From NCBI GenBank assembly GCA_005223095.1, contig NJBQ01000004.1:1-60878 (forward strand): a DNA stretch of 60,878 nt, read 5' to 3'. The notes beneath the pieces are model-generated. The model searched no databases, was not told where the DNA came from, and saw nothing but the letters and a program-made list of their open reading frames with translations. How positions within the stretch are numbered: the stretch's first letter is position 1; every line of letters begins with the position of its first letter. The DNA is from Candidatus Aerophobetes bacterium Ae_b3a. GTDB lineage: Bacteria > Aerophobota > Aerophobia > Aerophobales > AE-B3A. Shown piece by piece: positions 28,318-38,386 of the stretch. A program made the translations under genes and the position numbers.

Positions 28318-30651
28318 ATGCTGGAAGAAAAGAAAGCCTCCAGATGGGGCAGGTGGTTAGTTCTGGTAGTTTTGCTATTAGTGCTTATATATGTCATCGC
28401 TGATGGGTGGGTAATGAATAAGCTCGAGCCATATACAGTGGTAGGCGTTTATGAGCCGGGCGGGATCAGAGCTCTGGTTAATAAGAGTGATAAAAGTATC
28501 CGAAGGTGGAAGTGGCCAAGGATTCCGGGAACTTCTATAGGCGTAAAAGAGGAGTCAATTAAGGACGAGGTAAAGACTGTTACTTCCAGGTTTGCTCTGT
28601 ACACCAGTGAGGAAGTTACAGGAAAGGAAGAGGATAAAGAATACGCTCAGGCCTATGTAGTTGATATGGAAATTGAAGTAAAAGACTGGCAGAAATTCTT
28701 GACAGAGATTGATTTGGAAAAGATAAATGAAGAGAGAAAAAAAGCTGGCCCTTTTGTTACCTTAGTGAAGGATAGATTCGAAGTGATAGCTGGTTTCATA
28801 GAAGATGTTATTAAAAAAGGGGAGGCAACAGATAGATTGGGAAAGCCGCTGCGGTCAGAGGAAGGCTATCCAGCTATGAACTTAGTTGCCCGAATCAATT
28901 ATGCATACTCCCAGCTAGCAAATCGAAGAAACTTTCTTATTGCTCTTTTGGATAGATATCAGCTTGAAACTGGCCAGGAAATAACAGAATATCTGGAAGA
29001 GGAGATTCCCTGGCATTGGTTTGCTGGCCCAGATACTTATGAGTTTTTGGTTCAGCAATACAAGGAAATTCAGGAGTCAATTTTTTCTCCTTATCTTGAG
29101 AATATCGCCCCTGAGGTAGCTCAGCAACGACTTATTTTTGGCGAAGATAGACTCGAACTCTATCAAAAGGCTTATCAGGCTTATGGGTATGAGAAATTCT
29201 TGATGGAACGAGAAAGAAACATTGAAGAGTTTGAGAAGCGGCGGAGTGATTATGCTGGTGAGGAGGAGGCCGAGAAGGTAGTCCGTAGTTTTAAAAAATT
29301 CTTAAAGTGGCAAGAAAATGAACTCAGATTTGTCACTGATATCGAGCAGCTTCGTACTCTTTATAATTCATTTCTGGAGAAGCTTGAATCTGATCTTACT
29401 TTTATTTTGCGAGAATCGGAACTGGAGTTTGTTAAGGAAGAAATTGAGGAAGCGAAAGAGAAATTTGCCGGTGCTCCTTTAGAGGAGGCAGAAAGAGAAA
29501 AAGCTAAAGAGATTGAAGAAGGTGTGAAACACCTGATAATTAAAGAACGAGAAAAAGAATTTTACCAGATTTCTGATGAAGAACTTTCCCAGCTCCTCAG
29601 TGTCTACCTGGTAGAGAATAACCTGCAGGAGATTTCTGCTTCAGTATTAGATTATGTTTTACTGTTATTGAGGGAGGACTATTTTGCTGTTCTATCCGAT
29701 GAAGTAGAAAAAGCAGGCAAATTCCTGGATATGGAGATTATCAAAGAGTATTACCTGGAGCTTAAATCGAAACTAGAGACCGATAGGATAGACCCGGCCC
29801 AACTCTCACGTACTGTAATAGAGTATATAAGTGGTCAGCGATATCTTTACTCAACCTTTGTGGGATTGATTTCTCTTCTCTGGCAGGAAGAAAAAATAGA
29901 GTGGGATAGAGTTCAGTGGGAGAGAGTGAAGGAAGAAGAGCTTATTCCTTTCTTTGAGTACTATTCCCAGGCAAATACTGAACTTGCTCTAAACTTTAGA
30001 GGCATCACCTCTGAAGAAAATAGAGCCCTTTGGCAGGCCGCTATAGAGGAAGCATTAGGGGGAGAGGATATTGCCAGCCTGAGGTCCTTTACTAGCCATA
30101 AGGTTGAAGAGGGGGACACCCTGGCTGAATTGGCTAAAGAGTATGATGTTGATTGGCGATTGGTCCTTAACCGTCGTAATCGAGATTTTGCCCGGAGAAG
30201 CCTGACATCTGAGGACGATAAAGTGCGTTTTGATAAGCTTTTGGCTCAGGCTTTTGAAACGGGAGATTACAGAGCAGTTTATGAATTGGTTAAAGACACT
30301 CCTCTTAAGGCGGATGAAAGTATTATTATCAATAAAGTTGAGGAATTTACCCCTCAGTGGTTTGAAGAAGAGGAAGGATATCGGAAGAAAAGAGAAGCGA
30401 CAGTGAAGAAATACATTTATCGCTGGATAGAAGAATTTGCTCCCCGGGTAATAGAGGAATACCTTTTAGTCTCTCCCTGGCTAGATTACGTTGAGAGAAC
30501 ATACGGGGTGAAAATCAGGCAGATAAATCTCTACATTGAAAGAGATTCAATGTTTAACAAAGATGGCCAACCCAAAGATGAATACTATGATTTATATTAT
30601 TCCAAGTATGTTTCAGCAGTGAAATCCGAAAAGGAGATTAAAGAAGAGTGA
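28318..30651 (+). CDS. Large single-pass membrane protein with SPFH-like N-terminal region and LysM-like motif
   Basis: TM near residues 10-30, YTVVGVYEPGGIRALV..., Glu-rich helical body, HKVEEGDTLAELAKEYDVDWRLVLNRRN. Confidence 0.6.
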   Translation: MLEEKKASRWGRWLVLVVLLLVLIYVIADGWVMNKLEPYTVVGVYEPGGIRALVNKSDKSIRRWKWPRIPGTSIGVKEESIKDEVKTVTSRFALYTSEEVTGKEEDKEYAQAYVVDMEIEVKDWQKFLTEIDLEKINEERKKAGPFVTLVKDRFEVIAGFIEDVIKKGEATDRLGKPLRSEEGYPAMNLVARINYAYSQLANRRNFLIALLDRYQLETGQEITEYLEEEIPWHWFAGPDTYEFLVQQYKEIQESIFSPYLENIAPEVAQQRLIFGEDRLELYQKAYQAYGYEKFLMERERNIEEFEKRRSDYAGEEEAEKVVRSFKKFLKWQENELRFVTDIEQLRTLYNSFLEKLESDLTFILRESELEFVKEEIEEAKEKFAGAPLEEAEREKAKEIEEGVKHLIIKEREKEFYQISDEELSQLLSVYLVENNLQEISASVLDYVLLLLREDYFAVLSDEVEKAGKFLDMEIIKEYYLELKSKLETDRIDPAQLSRTVIEYISGQRYLYSTFVGLISLLWQEEKIEWDRVQWERVKEEELIPFFEYYSQANTELALNFRGITSEENRALWQAAIEEALGGEDIASLRSFTSHKVEEGDTLAELAKEYDVDWRLVLNRRNRDFARRSLTSEDDKVRFDKLLAQAFETGDYRAVYELVKDTPLKADESIIINKVEEFTPQWFEEEEGYRKKREATVKKYIYRWIEEFAPRVIEEYLLVSPWLDYVERTYGVKIRQINLYIERDSMFNKDGQPKDEYYDLYYSKYVSAVKSEKEIKEE

Positions 30652-31940
30652 AGCAGATTAAATCCTTTAAGGAGCGAAAGAGAGAGAGAATTGACCTTGA
30701 GGCCGATAGGACCATTGATGGATATCTTACCCGGAAAAACAGATTTAGCTCCTGGCGTCCTCCGGTTAAATCAGAACTAATAGACATTGATACTATCACT
30801 GAGGCAAAGATTATCCAGACAAAATTCGCTTCTTTTGAGAAGTTTACTGAGATAGAGTTAAAAGAGATAGAAAACATAAATAAACTTTGCCGCAAGGAAG
30901 GAAATAGTGAAATTAAAGTTCATCAAGTAGAAAATATTGATGGTGGCAAAGGATTCAATATAGGCAGGCAGGTTCTTCCCAAATACACTTTTCAACTGGG
31001 AAACAGCGAGAATCCTCAGTTTAAAATCCTGGTTTTAGCCAGTACGCATGGAGGAGAATCACGGCTGGCCAGAGCTGTCCTGCAGGGAATTCTCCAGTTG
31101 GCCCGTCCGGGTGAGGAACGTTACAGACTTCTAGAGAGAGGGACTATTCTTTTTGATCCAGTGGTTGATCCGGCCGGATTCGATAACCAGACCCGGGGAG
31201 CAGTAACTCGGGATGGAATGGCAGTTAATGCTCCGCTTTTAGGGGGAGGATGGGCTCAGCCAGGCCTGCGTAGCCCCTGGGGTTTAGGTGATAGAAATAG
31301 TGCTCAGGGAAGGAACAGTCTTGAGGCGCAAGATGTGTTGACTCGTTCTAACCAGGCTCATTACAAAGAAATCCTGGGAGGGAGAGCGAGCTGGGTTTAT
31401 GATGCGCACGAAACCTGTGAATTTACCCGCTGGCCAGATTTAGCCTTTACTTACGGAGGGATTCTTCTTATGGCTCACATTTATCTTTCCCATATTAAAC
31501 TCGCCTCTCTTAATCAGTTAGAGAGCTGTATTAGTTGGTGGAGGAAGCTGAGGAGTTTTATTAATGACCATAACCCCTTAGAAGGGCCATTATACAGAGA
31601 ACAGCTGCTCTGGCATGATCCGCGTATGCAAAAAATTACCCGCATCAAGGATAGAATAAAGGAATTGGGTCAAAGGACTATGGAAGAAAAATTTGACCGA
31701 GCTTTCCTTTTTCTGCCTCACGTAGAGCGAGATATTAGAATTGAGGAGAGCGTCTATATCGGGGGTATGATGTTTAGAATTCCCCGGATTTTACTGGGGC
31801 CGGATGTACTCGGCTTAGAAGGAGTAACTACAGAGTCTTTTCAGCAAGACCTGGTAGTGCGAGCCAAGCAGACTTTAGCTAGCCTTGAGGCACAGTTGAG
31901 GGTAGTTGGGCTTGACTACAAAGGAGAAGAGGGTGATTAG
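30648..31940 (+). CDS. M14-like zinc carboxypeptidase family protein
   Basis: ASTHGGESRLARAVL (HxxE) and later DAHETCEF; GTG start overlapping upstream stop (GTGA). Confidence 0.6.
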   Translation: MKQIKSFKERKRERIDLEADRTIDGYLTRKNRFSSWRPPVKSELIDIDTITEAKIIQTKFASFEKFTEIELKEIENINKLCRKEGNSEIKVHQVENIDGGKGFNIGRQVLPKYTFQLGNSENPQFKILVLASTHGGESRLARAVLQGILQLARPGEERYRLLERGTILFDPVVDPAGFDNQTRGAVTRDGMAVNAPLLGGGWAQPGLRSPWGLGDRNSAQGRNSLEAQDVLTRSNQAHYKEILGGRASWVYDAHETCEFTRWPDLAFTYGGILLMAHIYLSHIKLASLNQLESCISWWRKLRSFINDHNPLEGPLYREQLLWHDPRMQKITRIKDRIKELGQRTMEEKFDRAFLFLPHVERDIRIEESVYIGGMMFRIPRILLGPDVLGLEGVTTESFQQDLVVRAKQTLASLEAQLRVVGLDYKGEEGD

Positions 31941-34506
31941 CCATATCATCGAGTATTTTAAAATTCCTCATCCTCTGGAGAAAGACAAGGGAAACATAGT
32001 TATTTCTGCTCCCATAAAACTAAGCGAAAAATATTTCAGGGCGTGGCTTGATGATAAAAAATCGAGTGGTCCAGCCGACCTTCCCTGGATTTCAAGGGTT
32101 CTTATCAGCCCAGAAGAAGCTCGTCCAGAAGATGAGGATTTGGTCAAAAGATTTGAACGGAACTTTGAAATTGAAGACAATCATTCCTGGGGTGTAACCA
32201 AGCTTAAAATATTCTTGAGGTTTACTGCCGCCTGTGTAGTGGGCTATTTTATTTACTGGACAATCTTTAATTTTCCCTGGTTTTGGATTCCAGCAGCGGT
32301 TTTTCTGGAAAAGATTCTGGGGGATACTTTAACTAAGCTTTTTCAGGGGGTGGTCATTGCTTTTATTCCAGGATTAAGTTTCATAAAGAATTTTGTAGGA
32401 GCTAAAAGATGGATTCGGGCTAATTTCCGGTCTCAATATACTAAAATTTTTCGGCAGTTCGGCAGAAGTTCTCACCAATATTTTAGCAAAGAAGTCAAAA
32501 AGTGCTTGAAAAATATTAGGGCAGCGGCTGAGGAAGAAAATGCATCCATAGAAATGGGAACTATAGAAAATCTTTTAGAGGAAATTTTACACAAGCCTCC
32601 CGTAAATTCTGATTTTATCCAGGATTGGTCCAGGCGTCTGGAAGAACTCTTGAGAGACCTCAGCCAAAGGGCTAAAGCCGAGATTTTTCTTGAGGGAGTG
32701 ATAATTAAGCTGGACCAGTTAAAAAGGGATTTACTTCTTCACTACCTAGAAGGTTTTCAGATGGTTCCCCTCAAAATAGCCACACCGAATTTATCTAAAA
32801 AGGAATTTCTTCCCTCTCTTAATTATAATTTTGATTTAAGATTGAGTCTCTTAGGGGAGGGTTTTAAGCAGAAAGCAAAAAATTTGAAAGATTTTTTGGC
32901 AGAGACTTCCTCAATACGGGAAAGGATTTATTCTAACTTCGATTCTTTAAAGAGAGCGAAAGGGAAAAGGGAGAGAGTGAAGCTTCTGGAGAGTATTGAA
33001 GAGGGCTTTGAGAATTTGAGGAATATTGTGGGAAACTTTCATTTAGGAGACAATCCCGGGGTGCCTCATGAGAGAGGGGAAAACTTAAGTGATTTTTACG
33101 ATGGTCTTTATTACCTCTTTGGTAGGACGAAGCTTGATATTTCAAAGGGGGAAAAGGCAATCAAGGCAGTCCTATTTAGACGTCTTAGGCTAAGAAGCGA
33201 GCGTCAGCAGAGAGGGCGAATAGAAGAGCTCAGGCTCCGAGTGGAGCGTCTTCTTTGTCAGGGAATAAGTACTAAAAAAGCCTACCAGAGAATTTCTCAT
33301 TTTTTCAGCTTCTTTGGAGTAAATCTGAAGCGAAGTCTTGCTTTTTCCGGGTTGGTTTTGTTTGGTTTTGCTTGTTTTTTGAATTTCAAGGTAGTAGGGC
33401 CGGATGAGGTTCTTACCACTACCTATTTGAGATGGGGAGTAAAAGAGACGGCTACCCAGAAGGCTCCCCTTTTCTCACGTGGAGTGAGGGCTTATAAATT
33501 TGGTGAGGGTTTACCCATTTTTCCCAAAAAAGAGCTCTTTTGGCAACTACCCCCTCCTTTGGTCTATGCTCATAAGATAGACTTTACTCAGCTGCAAGAA
33601 TTTACTGCTCATATGGTATTTGGCGCTCCTATTGATAGTCTCTATAAGAAGGGGTTGCAGCTTCTTGCCGGAGCCTACGGAGGATATTACCAGGTGGTTG
33701 AGATTGGCTTCAAGTTCATAGCTAATGATAGAGAGGTCTGGATTAAATATGACTACGACGGAAAGGGGACAAAAAGACTGGCTAGAGACGTTGCCTCGGT
33801 AGTTGACGAATGGAGAGGAGAGCTTTTCGACTTCTACGAAAGTCCCTTAATAGATTTGCAGGATGAAGAGGAAATGGAGGAGGTCTTCTCTGGTTCCTAT
33901 TTTAAAAAGCTCTGGGAGGAAGGAAGGATGGAGGAGATAATAAAGTCTCAGATTTTTAGAAGTCCTTTAATGACTTATCAGTATGGGACATATTCGGAGA
34001 TGATAGGCCCGGGCATAGATTTGATTTTGAGGAGTCTAGCCAGGGAAAAGCTCGAGCTAGAAGATAGTAACCTTTCCCGATTAGAAAAGGAAGAGAAACT
34101 AGCCGAAATTGAAGATTTTGAGAGTCGGGTAGAGAAGATAAAAGAAGATACCTTAGAAATAGCCAGGGAGGAATACGACGTTCTGAGAAAGCAGCCGGAA
34201 AAGTTTAAGAAGTACTTGTCTGATCCGGAAAGTATCTCCGAGTTAAAGGGTTTTGAGACCGTCTGGCCGGCTATTCAGCGCATAATGCTGCAGCACTATA
34301 TAACCGACAAATTAATAAGAACTGTTAAGGGCGAACTAGGGGAAGAAGAAAAAGAGGAGCTTCTTCAGGTGTTAAGGGAAAGAATAGAAGAAAATCCTTA
34401 TTTTTCTTCTCTCATTGAGATAAGAGAGATGAAGGCTGGGGTAATCTTTATGGATTCTCATGGCTATCGTAGCTTTATTTCGAAAATAACTAAGGAAATT
34501 ATTTAA
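31933..34506 (+). CDS. Large multi-TM protein with possible SPFH-like segment
   Basis: aaaggagaagagGTG start overlapping upstream stop; TM clusters; FKVVGPDEVLTTTYLRWGVKE after TM. Confidence 0.6.
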   Translation: MISHIIEYFKIPHPLEKDKGNIVISAPIKLSEKYFRAWLDDKKSSGPADLPWISRVLISPEEARPEDEDLVKRFERNFEIEDNHSWGVTKLKIFLRFTAACVVGYFIYWTIFNFPWFWIPAAVFLEKILGDTLTKLFQGVVIAFIPGLSFIKNFVGAKRWIRANFRSQYTKIFRQFGRSSHQYFSKEVKKCLKNIRAAAEEENASIEMGTIENLLEEILHKPPVNSDFIQDWSRRLEELLRDLSQRAKAEIFLEGVIIKLDQLKRDLLLHYLEGFQMVPLKIATPNLSKKEFLPSLNYNFDLRLSLLGEGFKQKAKNLKDFLAETSSIRERIYSNFDSLKRAKGKRERVKLLESIEEGFENLRNIVGNFHLGDNPGVPHERGENLSDFYDGLYYLFGRTKLDISKGEKAIKAVLFRRLRLRSERQQRGRIEELRLRVERLLCQGISTKKAYQRISHFFSFFGVNLKRSLAFSGLVLFGFACFLNFKVVGPDEVLTTTYLRWGVKETATQKAPLFSRGVRAYKFGEGLPIFPKKELFWQLPPPLVYAHKIDFTQLQEFTAHMVFGAPIDSLYKKGLQLLAGAYGGYYQVVEIGFKFIANDREVWIKYDYDGKGTKRLARDVASVVDEWRGELFDFYESPLIDLQDEEEMEEVFSGSYFKKLWEEGRMEEIIKSQIFRSPLMTYQYGTYSEMIGPGIDLILRSLAREKLELEDSNLSRLEKEEKLAEIEDFESRVEKIKEDTLEIAREEYDVLRKQPEKFKKYLSDPESISELKGFETVWPAIQRIMLQHYITDKLIRTVKGELGEEEKEELLQVLRERIEENPYFSSLIEIREMKAGVIFMDSHGYRSFISKITKEII

Positions 34507-34690
34507 TAGCGTATAGCGTTTAGCGTATAGCGTGTAGTGAAAACAAAAAGCAATAAAGCTGAAAATCAAAACCAAAACGTAAAGCGAAGAATGCAAAACT
34601 AAAGCCAATAGTCTATTGTTCGGAGTTTATCGACAAGAGTAACAGCCTCCTCTCCCCTGAGGGGAGAGGATTAAGGTGAGGGGGTGAATA
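34503..34690. repeat. Composite intergenic repeat E3 (GCGTATAGCGTTTAGCGTATAGCG; CTCTCCCCTGAGGGGAGAGGATTAAGGTGAGGGG)
   Basis: Same words as E1, E5 and E8. Confidence 0.75.
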
Positions 34691-34693
34691 AGG

Positions 34694-36394
34694 ATGGCGC
34701 GTTGGTCTGTAAAAAGTAAACACAAGAGAAGAGTTGTCCTGGTCCTGCCCGGATTTAATCAGGGCAGGGGAAAGAGAGGTGCCTGGTTTGCCTGGACCGA
34801 AAAAACAGAGAATTTCTTCCGCAGATTTTCGCACGGCTGGTACACCCTAAAATACGATATTTTCTCTCCAGAAAATGAGTTTCCTCTTTCTGAGGGAGAA
34901 TTACAGCATCTGACTGAAGAGATTAGTTCGAGCGAGCAGGCCTATACTTCTCTTCTTCATTTCCAGGAAGTTATGGGTGGGATGGGTAGAAGCTTAAGAA
35001 AGAGAGGTATTCGGGGTCTCTTCCTCTATTTGATGATGGTCTTATCGGTTAAGCAGTTTTGGATTATTATTCTCCTTTGGCCGCAGACTTTTCTGACTAA
35101 TTTCATAAATTATTTTCGCTGGAGGACAGTAAGACGAACGAGCAGTATTGTTTCTTCCTTCTGGCAAAGAGGAGATGACCCAGAACTAGTAGAAGTCTTA
35201 ACTGAAGCAAAAGAGCTCTATGCTAGGCTGGATAATGACTCTTCCCGGGCTGAGCCTCTGCGTAAGTATCAGTATTTGCGAGACTATTTTAAGGAGAGAC
35301 GGCGGGAAGAGGAAAAAAAAGAGAAAGCAAGCTCTTATGAGCTAGTGGAGCAAGCTTACCGGGATATTATCTCTCAGCTTACCGGTGATAGCTTTCTCTT
35401 AAAAATAGTTCCCAAGACAACGCGGGAAAGGATAGTTAACTTTTTTCATGTCACCGAGCAGTTTCCTTACCCTGATAATATCTTTGCTGTAAGAAATCTT
35501 TTTCGGGATTTATCTTTGCCCACCCCCATTCCTCAGAGCGAAGTAATAGGGAGAGATACAAAAGTGGAAGGTAACAATTTAGAGATGTTTCTCCTTCGCA
35601 CTAAAGCGGGAGAAGGTATAGTGATTCCTTGTCCGTCAGAGAATGTTCTTTCTCTCATCTTTCGGGCGGAGACTTTTGAGAATATCCAGAGGAAGAATCT
35701 TCCTCTGGAGGCAGTGCTCTATGTAGGCCGAGAAGAAGAAAAGAAAGCTTTACTCGATTTTGATCCCCTCAAGACAGAAGAATTGAACACACGAGGGATG
35801 GAAAAAACAGGGATACGCATCCACAATGCTCTTTTAGATACTTTCCGACAGGAAGAATCTCTTACAAGTTACTATTTTAGAGAGTTACCAGCTGTTTACA
35901 GTAAACAAAGATGGAGGCATCCTCTTTATCTGTGGGGTAATCTGGTACATCTGGGCTTTCCCTGGCTTTTCATATCACATGGTATTCCTGCCTTTGCAGT
36001 GGTAGCCTGCACCTGGATTTTCTGGGATTATTTGTGGAATTCGCAAGACCAGGTCAGATGGCGAGATTATTTCGACAATCTCCTGGAAGGAATAGATAAG
36101 GCTTACCATAATATGAACTTAAAAATAATGGTTCATTCGGGCTTGGGAGAGGTTAATGCTGCCATCAAGGTAACTGGCCCGGCCAGCTATCGAGATGTTT
36201 TGGAAAAAATCGAAGAATATCATTTCCCTAGAAAATTCAGGGATATGGTCCTACTTAACGCTATCACTCAAGAGACCACTCAGCTTAAGGATTTTCAGAA
36301 AGAGGCTAATGATTTTACCACTCTGCCTATCCCCGCTTTTTGTTATGAGGAAAACAAAAATAACATTGAGTCTTTAGGAGAATTCTCAGGTTAG
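34694..36394 (+). CDS. Uncharacterised membrane protein, N-terminus reminiscent of alpha/beta-hydrolase strand
   Basis: RRVVLVLPGFNQGRGKRGAWFAWTEKTENFF; several TM segments; follows 31933..34506. Confidence 0.55.
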   Translation: MARWSVKSKHKRRVVLVLPGFNQGRGKRGAWFAWTEKTENFFRRFSHGWYTLKYDIFSPENEFPLSEGELQHLTEEISSSEQAYTSLLHFQEVMGGMGRSLRKRGIRGLFLYLMMVLSVKQFWIIILLWPQTFLTNFINYFRWRTVRRTSSIVSSFWQRGDDPELVEVLTEAKELYARLDNDSSRAEPLRKYQYLRDYFKERRREEEKKEKASSYELVEQAYRDIISQLTGDSFLLKIVPKTTRERIVNFFHVTEQFPYPDNIFAVRNLFRDLSLPTPIPQSEVIGRDTKVEGNNLEMFLLRTKAGEGIVIPCPSENVLSLIFRAETFENIQRKNLPLEAVLYVGREEEKKALLDFDPLKTEELNTRGMEKTGIRIHNALLDTFRQEESLTSYYFRELPAVYSKQRWRHPLYLWGNLVHLGFPWLFISHGIPAFAVVACTWIFWDYLWNSQDQVRWRDYFDNLLEGIDKAYHNMNLKIMVHSGLGEVNAAIKVTGPASYRDVLEKIEEYHFPRKFRDMVLLNAITQETTQLKDFQKEANDFTTLPIPAFCYEENKNNIESLGEFSG

Positions 36395-37825
36395 GCTTTG
36401 GCTTAAAGTTGGGCGTTTGGTATCTTTGGTCTTTTCTAATTGAAGAAAAGCTTTGTGGTTATTAATGCAACCTGGATCGGGTGCTTTTAAATCACCAAAG
36501 TAAGCGTAAGCTCTGGCCCGACAACCTCCACAGGCTGCTCTATGCTCACATATTCCGCAGTGCTCCTTCAGGTCTTCACGACTGCGAAGTTCTTCCAGGA
36601 CACTGGAATTATTCCAGATTTCTTTAAAAGTTTGCTTTTTTAGGTCACCTACCTCTATGGGCATATACACGCAAGGAGTGACTATTCCGTCCGGTTGAAT
36701 GGCGCAGTAGGCTCTTCCTACTCCGCACCCTCCTATAAACTCAGCTAGAAGGCGGGTCTTATCCCCTTTGCTCATACTATAGTGACTGCTAGCAGTGAAC
36801 TCTCCCTGGCTCTTATTCATGCAGACCCGTGCATACTGAGGGCAGCTAGTGAGAGTAGCTGTTCCTTTCTTAAGATAATATTCATAGAGGGTGTTTAACA
36901 TTTTTTCTCGCATAGAGGGAGTTAAGTCTAAACCAATTAAGTTCTTTCCTTCTCCCACCGGGATGAAATTGAAGGCAAAAAATTTGTCCGTTCTCAAACT
37001 AATGCTGAATTCTATCAAATCTTCTAGTTCATTAAAATTCATCTTGGTAATAGTAGAGGCTAAGCCTACTTGATAGGCTTTCTGGGCCACGGCCTTTTTG
37101 ATTCCTCTTACTGCTTTTTTCCAGGCTCCCGGGATTCCTCTAAACCCATCATGTTTTTCCGGATGAACACTATCTAAACTTATCTCTACATAATCTACTC
37201 CCACCGTCGCCATTCTTCTTGCCACTTCCTCAGTAATTAAAGTTCCGTTGGTAGCTATAGACACATACATATTTTCTTTTTTTACTTTTTCGATCGCCGG
37301 CCAGAGGTCCTTATCCATCAGAGGCTCTCCTCCCGAAAAAGCAATGATGAAAACCTCCTCTTTTGCTAATTGGTTAATAATATCTATTCTTTTAGATAAA
37401 GGGAGTTCTTGGGGTAGTTTCTTACCGGCGTTTTGATAGCAATGCTTACATTTTAAATTACAGATATTAGTAAAGTCCCAGACTACTACAGGAGGAGCAA
37501 CAAACTTTTGCGGATAGGTTAAGCCATAATGAGCCACCGACCTCATAGTAAGGGATACTGCTTTTTGTATTGCAGGACTGTTGAGTTCCTTTTTTACCTC
37601 TTCTTTAGTCTGCTTGAAGAGAATTCTGCCTGATTCGAAAAAAAGATAAAAGGGAAATATCTCTAATTTTTCAAGGAGTGACAGATGGTCATCTTCATTA
37701 GTGTAAAGAGAGAAGATGCCTTCAAGAGCACTCCTACCATTTTTATTCTTTCGAGCAAATAGGCTGAAGGCACAACGATTTATCTCATTCTTCAAAAAGA
37801 ATCTTATCAGATAAGTTATATCCAT
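36386..37825 (-). CDS. Radical SAM/SPASM domain protein
   Basis: CNLKCKHCYQNAG, FSGGEPL, C-terminal CGICEHRAACGGCRARAYAYFGD. Confidence 0.85.
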   Translation of the reverse strand: MDITYLIRFFLKNEINRCAFSLFARKNKNGRSALEGIFSLYTNEDDHLSLLEKLEIFPFYLFFESGRILFKQTKEEVKKELNSPAIQKAVSLTMRSVAHYGLTYPQKFVAPPVVVWDFTNICNLKCKHCYQNAGKKLPQELPLSKRIDIINQLAKEEVFIIAFSGGEPLMDKDLWPAIEKVKKENMYVSIATNGTLITEEVARRMATVGVDYVEISLDSVHPEKHDGFRGIPGAWKKAVRGIKKAVAQKAYQVGLASTITKMNFNELEDLIEFSISLRTDKFFAFNFIPVGEGKNLIGLDLTPSMREKMLNTLYEYYLKKGTATLTSCPQYARVCMNKSQGEFTASSHYSMSKGDKTRLLAEFIGGCGVGRAYCAIQPDGIVTPCVYMPIEVGDLKKQTFKEIWNNSSVLEELRSREDLKEHCGICEHRAACGGCRARAYAYFGDLKAPDPGCINNHKAFLQLEKTKDTKRPTLSQSLT

Positions 37826-37892
37826 TCCATCCCTCCTGATTTGTGACTATTCAGTTCTATCATCTTCCACCGAGAGCACTAGAAATCAAAGT

Positions 37893-37980
37893 AGTGATTG
37901 GTGAATCGCAAAGGGACTAAACGGTTATAGGGTTTGATTGACAATTCACGATTCACGAAATACAATTCACCAATTATAGG
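37893..37980. repeat. Composite intergenic repeat E4
   Basis: ggtgaatcgcaaa...tatagggtttgattgacaattcacgattcac matches 45420-45476. Confidence 0.75.
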
Positions 37981-38047
37981 AATTTCCTAGGGTTTTCCCT
38001 TTTGACTTGTCTTTGCGTACTCTGTGGTTTTTGCCGTGAGTAGTCAC

Positions 38048-38386
38048 CTACTTTTTTTGAAGTTTCAGAATTCCATATAGCTCGGAAAAATCACCCATTA
38101 ATTCTGCTAGCCTTTTCTTATTTAGTTTGTATCTTACCCATTGAGCTTTTTTGAACTGTTCGACCAAACCAAAATTGAGCAAGAGTCCTAGATGATAGGA
38201 GATTGTGGGTTGCGAGAGGCTCAGGTTTTTGCTAAGAAAATTTACGCACTTTTCCTCATTGGCGATTATCTTTAATATCTGCAATCTCACTTTACTTCCC
38301 AGTATGCCAAAAGTTTTAGCAACATCTATCTTTTCCTTTTCCATTGTAGTCTTTTTACCCACTTCTTTTTTTTCTTGATTTTTCAT
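38048..38386 (-). CDS. ArsR-family transcriptional regulator
   Basis: GSKVRLQILKIIANEEKCVNFLSKNLSLSQPTISYHLGLLLNFGLVE. Confidence 0.85.
   Translation of the reverse strand: MKNQEKKEVGKKTTMEKEKIDVAKTFGILGSKVRLQILKIIANEEKCVNFLSKNLSLSQPTISYHLGLLLNFGLVEQFKKAQWVRYKLNKKRLAELMGDFSELYGILKLQKK

Follow-up and report, generated by a model that had tools for sequence, protein, structure and literature searches.

Membrane scaffolds of the SPFH type occur almost universally, and what purpose they serve in general is a matter of debate; their best-studied bacterial partners are FtsH and proteases of the NfeD/ClpP type. HflK and HflC belong to the SPFH3 family, and FtsH is a cytosolic AAA metalloprotease; the LysM-M14 peptidoglycan endopeptidases form a further system for comparison. 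The partnership of SPFH scaffolds with peptidases, HflK/C with FtsH and stomatin with NfeD/ClpP, is described in two SPFH surveys (PMC2636767, PMC13086221), in which keyword searches find FtsH and NfeD/ClpP and not M14. A full-text literature search combining SPFH, carboxypeptidase and M14 found no paper, which is weak evidence of absence, considering that most subscription papers and all preprints lie outside its coverage. Here we analyse a stretch of 60,878 nucleotides (the window) from Candidatus Aerophobetes bacterium Ae_b3a (contig NJBQ01000004.1, our G000:C72, in an assembly of 2.37 Mb and 141 contigs), in which four co-directional open reading frames on the forward strand (ORF1 to ORF4, within positions 28318-36394) bring together an M14-like enzyme and three membrane proteins, two of them of putative SPFH type.

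With HflK/HflC and FtsH this cluster shares its layout and likely its principle: two co-encoded, membrane-anchored proteins of putative SPFH type (ORF1 and ORF3) are predicted to lie outside, and their zinc peptidase partner (ORF2) is predicted to be cytosolic. However, the partner is of the M14 class and no FtsH is encoded in the cluster, long insertions break up the putative SPFH domains, which are very divergent, three transmembrane (TM) segments are predicted in ORF3, and ORF4 is an extra component. The stomatin-NfeD(ClpP) operons (SPFH1/NfeD1) likewise couple an SPFH gene to a peptidase gene, whereas no gene of the cluster matches NfeD or ClpP, and both enzyme class and topology differ. 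In common with the LysM-M14 endopeptidases, a LysM-like motif and an M14 enzyme are found at one locus, but here motif and enzyme belong to different proteins, and only part of the module's members have the motif. The combination of SPFH and peptidase is thus already known as a principle; what appears to be new is the M14 class of the enzyme, the interruption of the domains and the fixed set of five parts. An independent pairing of SPFH with M14, if true, would support the view that SPFH scaffolds confine or gate peptidases, and the module gives borders to protein families that the curated libraries do not recognise.

ORF1, the M14-like ORF2, ORF3 and ORF4 (the latter as one chain or as two genes, 4N and 4C) constitute one conserved and co-inherited module. 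It is present as 18 clusters in 17 genomes of two phyla with fixed neighbours, six close and three divergent clusters coming from the home phylum (Aerophobota-like) and the others from nine genomes of a second phylum. Three gene orders can be distinguished: type A (ORF1, M14, ORF3, ORF4) in G000, G001, G002, G003 (two copies) and G010; type B (4N-4C-M14-ORF3-short ORF1) in G016 and G015 of the home phylum and in the nine genomes of the second; and type C (4C-M14-ORF3-ORF1) in G014, where the cluster lies at the end of its contig. The comparison of type A with types B and C identifies the ORF4 of the window as two genes elsewhere; set against the short ORF1 of type B, the ORF1 of the window is a long form that contains several hundred inserted residues. 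Wherever a cluster-type M14 gene occurs its partners adjoin it, up to the limits of the contig; the ORF1 frame is broken in one second-phylum genome (G402). The preliminary description of the locus had chosen the co-occurrence of the four genes in other genomes as a test in advance, and this co-occurrence is strongly supported across both phyla; its assignment of the fourth membrane ORF to the same system is likewise borne out. The distances of M14, ORF3 and ORF1 correlate with r = 0.98 across 14 clusters, in part a consequence of the common history of the species. The distribution is patchy: 8 of 17 genomes of the home phylum have the module, as do 9 of the 50 from the second phylum, and the negatives include incomplete genomes. 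The flanking genes vary between clusters. In G003 the two copies (L025, G003:C33; L026, G003:C92) each lie beside a glyQ-like gene, the second having its M14 frame split at the contig end; they may reflect a mixture of strains in the assembly.

The second phylum is probably Atribacterota. Within Atribacterota, Thermatribacteraceae are sister to Caldatribacteriaceae (PMC11227167), and the two families of the second phylum that bear the module (f148 and f222) are consistent with this picture. If the assignment is right, the cultured Thermatribacter velox may carry the module, which would open it to experimental testing.

ORF1 (28318..30651, +, 777 residues) and ORF2 (30648..31940, +, 430 residues, GTG start) share the sequence GTGA at 30648-30651, which contains the stop of the former and the start of the latter, and the GTG start of ORF3 (31933..34506, +, 857 residues) sits 8 nucleotides within the end of ORF2 (stop TAG at 31938-31940), preceded by AAAGGAG; a TTG at 31906 is an alternative start of ORF3. 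The overlaps from which translational coupling of three ORFs had been proposed for this locus are present. ORF4 (34694..36394, +), a membrane protein of 566 residues that corresponds to fused 4N and 4C, does not overlap ORF3, the gap being 187 nucleotides in the window and approximately 17-50 nucleotides in three related clusters (L007, L008, L025). All four ORFs have orthologous clusters in other genomes, and the ratio of nonsynonymous to synonymous substitution rates (dN/dS) between the window and its relatives lies between 0.085 and 0.21, which corresponds to purifying selection and identifies the four ORFs as functional genes. None of the four in the window reaches a curated cut-off in Pfam or NCBIfam, and searches of the window ORFs against PHROGs and PADLOC gave nothing more than the LysM-like motif in ORF1 and marginal matches.

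The assignment of ORF2 as an M14 metallocarboxypeptidase homologue is well supported by sequence comparison. In the alignment of 17 family members the motifs HG-E, DPxG, DxN, HET and TxE are invariant and follow the order seen in M14 enzymes, providing the zinc ligands H134 and E137 (HGGE, 31047..31058, +), the third ligand H254 (HET, 31407..31415, +) and the catalytic glutamate motif T394-x-E396 (31827..31835, +), each conserved in 17 of 17 sequences. The Pfam M14 model (PF00246) does not match ORF2 of the window itself, and recognises three relatives with 24.0 (L070), 24.6 (L069) and 28.1 bits (L095) against a cut-off of 21.6. Searched against the PDB, the profile of the family retrieves carboxypeptidase B with an E value of 4.2e-7 (0.0023 with a smaller alignment). 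The M14 identity first proposed from an HxxE and a later DAHE is well supported; HGGE and DAHE are present in ORF2. ORF2 shares with M14 metallocarboxypeptidases (PF00246, carboxypeptidase B 7eqx) the zinc ligands, the catalytic Glu, DPxG and DxN in order; it differs in lacking both Arg after D-x-N and a signal peptide and in having obligate membrane neighbours. The residue that follows D-x-N is Ser, Ala or Gly and never Arg, at the aligned position where carboxypeptidases carry the carboxylate-binding Arg. Therefore, owing to the absence of the Asn-Arg carboxylate-binding pair, the family is to be regarded as M14-fold enzymes and not as proven carboxypeptidases; the carboxylate anchor is perhaps missing or supplied by another residue, for which the nearby and nearly invariant R222 is a candidate. 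According to hydropathy, on which the whole TM layout given here is based, neither TM segment nor signal peptide is found in any member tested, and ORF2 is predicted to be a cytosolic enzyme. Outside the clusters, the nearest relatives of the ORF2 profile form a separate M14 group of 400 residues (L071 and L072, in G040 and G187; E value about 1e-20 to 1e-15), in whose vicinity none of the other cluster genes was found.

The most plausible reading of ORF1 and ORF3 is that both are SPFH proteins, strongly diverged and containing large insertions. ORF1 consists of an N-terminal TM segment (residues 6-36), a first SPFH-like half (approximately residues 37-150), a long helical insertion, a last SPFH-like strand (residues 729-740) and a short end; the strand motif YGVKIRQINLYI (30502..30537, +) contains a Y-G that is invariant throughout the ORF1 family. 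ORF3, counted from its GTG, has TM segments at approximately residues 93-112, 133-151 and 465-483, a predicted cytosolic helical linker and a predicted extracytoplasmic SPFH-like domain with an insertion. The TM segments and the motifs VVGVYEPGG and VVGPDEV, from which an SPFH layout of both proteins had originally been suggested, are present, and the TM segment directly precedes the SPFH-like domain in all members tested. When the AlphaFold model of ORF1 was compared with 350,542 PDB chains by Foldseek, the six top entries were all SPFH (HflK/C, an SPFH-family entry and stomatin; E values 0.19-0.67, none individually significant), and Band 7 proteins took ranks 1-3 in a viral library; what supports ORF1 is that a single family heads the ranking in both libraries, and not any individual match. 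In ORF3 the evidence comes from profile comparisons with an SPFH reference profile of 35 sequences, in which significance was assessed by shuffles. The third TM segment together with the first half of the domain (approximately residues 465-610; 33325..33762, +) scores 29.2, the maximum of 60 shuffles being 26.7 (0/60 reach the score), and the second half (approximately residues 762-836; 34216..34440, +), compared with the TM segment left out of the profile and matching the SPFH helical region and last strand, GI.I..V, scores 28.3 against a maximum of 27.1 (0/100). By comparison, profiles of four unrelated families in these clusters score 12.7-17.4, against 28-30 for ORF3. In the relative from G157 Pfam Band_7 touches the second SPFH-like region of ORF3 with 14.0-16.2 bits (cut-off 23.6; E values 0.01-0.05). 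A direct comparison of ORF1 with ORF3 by hhalign detected no similarity, and PDB sequence searches with the profiles of the two returned only unrelated helical matches, such as saposin. No single one of these tests is decisive; the support is convergent, SPFH membership is likely and unproven, and the original SPFH claim stands as far as these several weak signals carry it and not as a confident structure. That at least one of the two proteins belongs to SPFH is quite probable, and for both together the probability is lower.

The topology suggests how such proteins could work together. ORF1 has one N-terminal TM segment with preceding positive charges and ORF3 of the window has three, which predicts that the domains past the TM segments lie outside. 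ORF1, by its single TM segment, and ORF3, by the third of its three, would anchor SPFH domains outside the cytoplasmic membrane and may form a scaffold or cage in the way of HflK and HflC, while the large helical segment of ORF3 would reach into the cytosol, where the soluble ORF2 would work. ORF4 (4N and 4C) would be an additional membrane component, and the scaffold could hold or gate ORF2 by way of the ORF3 linker in the cytosol and of ORF4. By analogy with HflK/C-FtsH and stomatin-NfeD(ClpP), ORF2 would trim C-termini or small peptide or acyl groups of substrates delivered at the membrane; candidate substrates are C-termini of membrane proteins, peptides in transit and murein peptides. That the cluster encodes one membrane complex, in which an SPFH scaffold is combined with a cytosolic M14 enzyme, is in our judgement an even call. 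More tentative is the more specific proposal of a dedicated machine that differs from the pairings with FtsH and NfeD/ClpP: two SPFH proteins with insertions would build a cage on the outer side, which a connection across the membrane would join to the cytosolic M14 enzyme.

Several results weigh against this SPFH scaffold. The AlphaFold models are of low confidence for the window proteins and for three relatives; that of ORF1 is poor (predicted local distance difference test, pLDDT, 44), although its elements run in the order TM segment, strands, helices, last strand and helix, and that of ORF3 is worse (pLDDT 39) and found no SPFH entry with Foldseek. Pfam Band_7 (PF01145) never exceeds its cut-off for ORF1 or ORF3 and does not match ORF1 at all, and the ORF1 profile exceeds its shuffles against SPFH only when the TM segment is included. 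The long C-terminal coiled coil, which is typical of classical SPFH proteins without strictly defining them, is absent, both proteins ending soon after the last strand. Moreover, considering that the SPFH domains would be outside and the enzyme inside, any contact with ORF2 would have to pass through the linker, the TM segments or ORF4.

Alternatively, ORF1 and ORF3 could be an unrelated family with single or triple TM segments and the module a membrane-bound M14 peptidase complex of wholly new architecture. The lack of curated SPFH matches above cut-off, the low-confidence models and the negative result for ORF1 without its TM segment all fit this explanation, and the TM segment could account for part of the profile match. 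It does not easily accommodate SPFH ranking first for ORF1 in two independent libraries, nor the ORF3 profile, which without its TM segment matches the second half of SPFH above all shuffles in the very region that Pfam Band_7 touches independently. Long helical insertions within the domains would explain why the curated models miss both proteins, and we consider the explanation by an unrelated family rather unlikely.

Somewhat less likely again is a cell-wall system, in which a LysM-like motif of ORF1 binds peptidoglycan, the M14 enzyme cleaves peptidoglycan peptides and the SPFH-like proteins serve as a scaffold. The motif (ORF1 residues 594-613; 30097..30156, +) is shared by the four ORF1 proteins of type A that are full-length and is predicted to face outwards, and bacterial M14 enzymes often act on murein peptides, as murein-peptide amidases and LysM-M14 endopeptidases do. 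It is real and weak: only the first half of the LysM profile (PF01476) is matched, with 14.3 bits in the window, 17.1 in L008, 20.2 in L025 and 20.9 in L007, which just reaches the cut-off of 20.9. However, it is absent from ten clusters, those in which ORF1 is short, and therefore does not belong to the conserved core; only for type A does it argue for a link to the wall. The M14 protein, moreover, has neither signal peptide nor TM segment in any member, although a cytosolic role in murein recycling is a possible variant. Of the scaffold coupled to a cell-wall or peptide-cleaving enzyme that had been envisaged at the outset, the cell-wall part is thus less favoured. A mobile defence or conflict module, to which the patchy presence within families, the differing flanking genes, the combination of membrane proteins with a hydrolase and a marginal PADLOC match of ORF3 (PDC-M66B, E value 0.007) could point, is very improbable, as the defence and phage family searches gave no match of note, no relatives of the module were found in phage, plasmid and viral-contig collections, and the genes diverge in step and largely by family, which is not the pattern of recent spread.

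Canonical SPFH genes are present in every genome searched for Band_7 proteins, so the module is an addition to them and not a replacement. In G000 canonical pairs of the HflK/HflC type are located elsewhere (G000:C97:46746-48274 and G000:C44:41377-42942), and a further SPFH gene on C139 is followed by a protein with LysM and M23-like parts (L001). In four of the nine second-phylum genomes a canonical stomatin gene shares the contig with the cluster, at a distance of approximately 4-7 kb (G157:C1, G396:C62, G401:C181 and G402:C7; L096, L099, L105 and L106), and that of G157 adjoins a gene of the NfeD/ClpP type (L069:15049-16985).

As regards neighbouring genes, a HAD-type phosphatase and a gene resembling glycerol-1-phosphate dehydrogenase, both named by eye from sequence, come after the clusters of G157 (L069:2920-5221) and G294 (L070:6853-8950). 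Directly past the cluster in the window, on the opposite strand (36386-38386), Pfam identifies a radical SAM/SPASM gene and an ArsR-type regulator, a context that is peculiar to G000.

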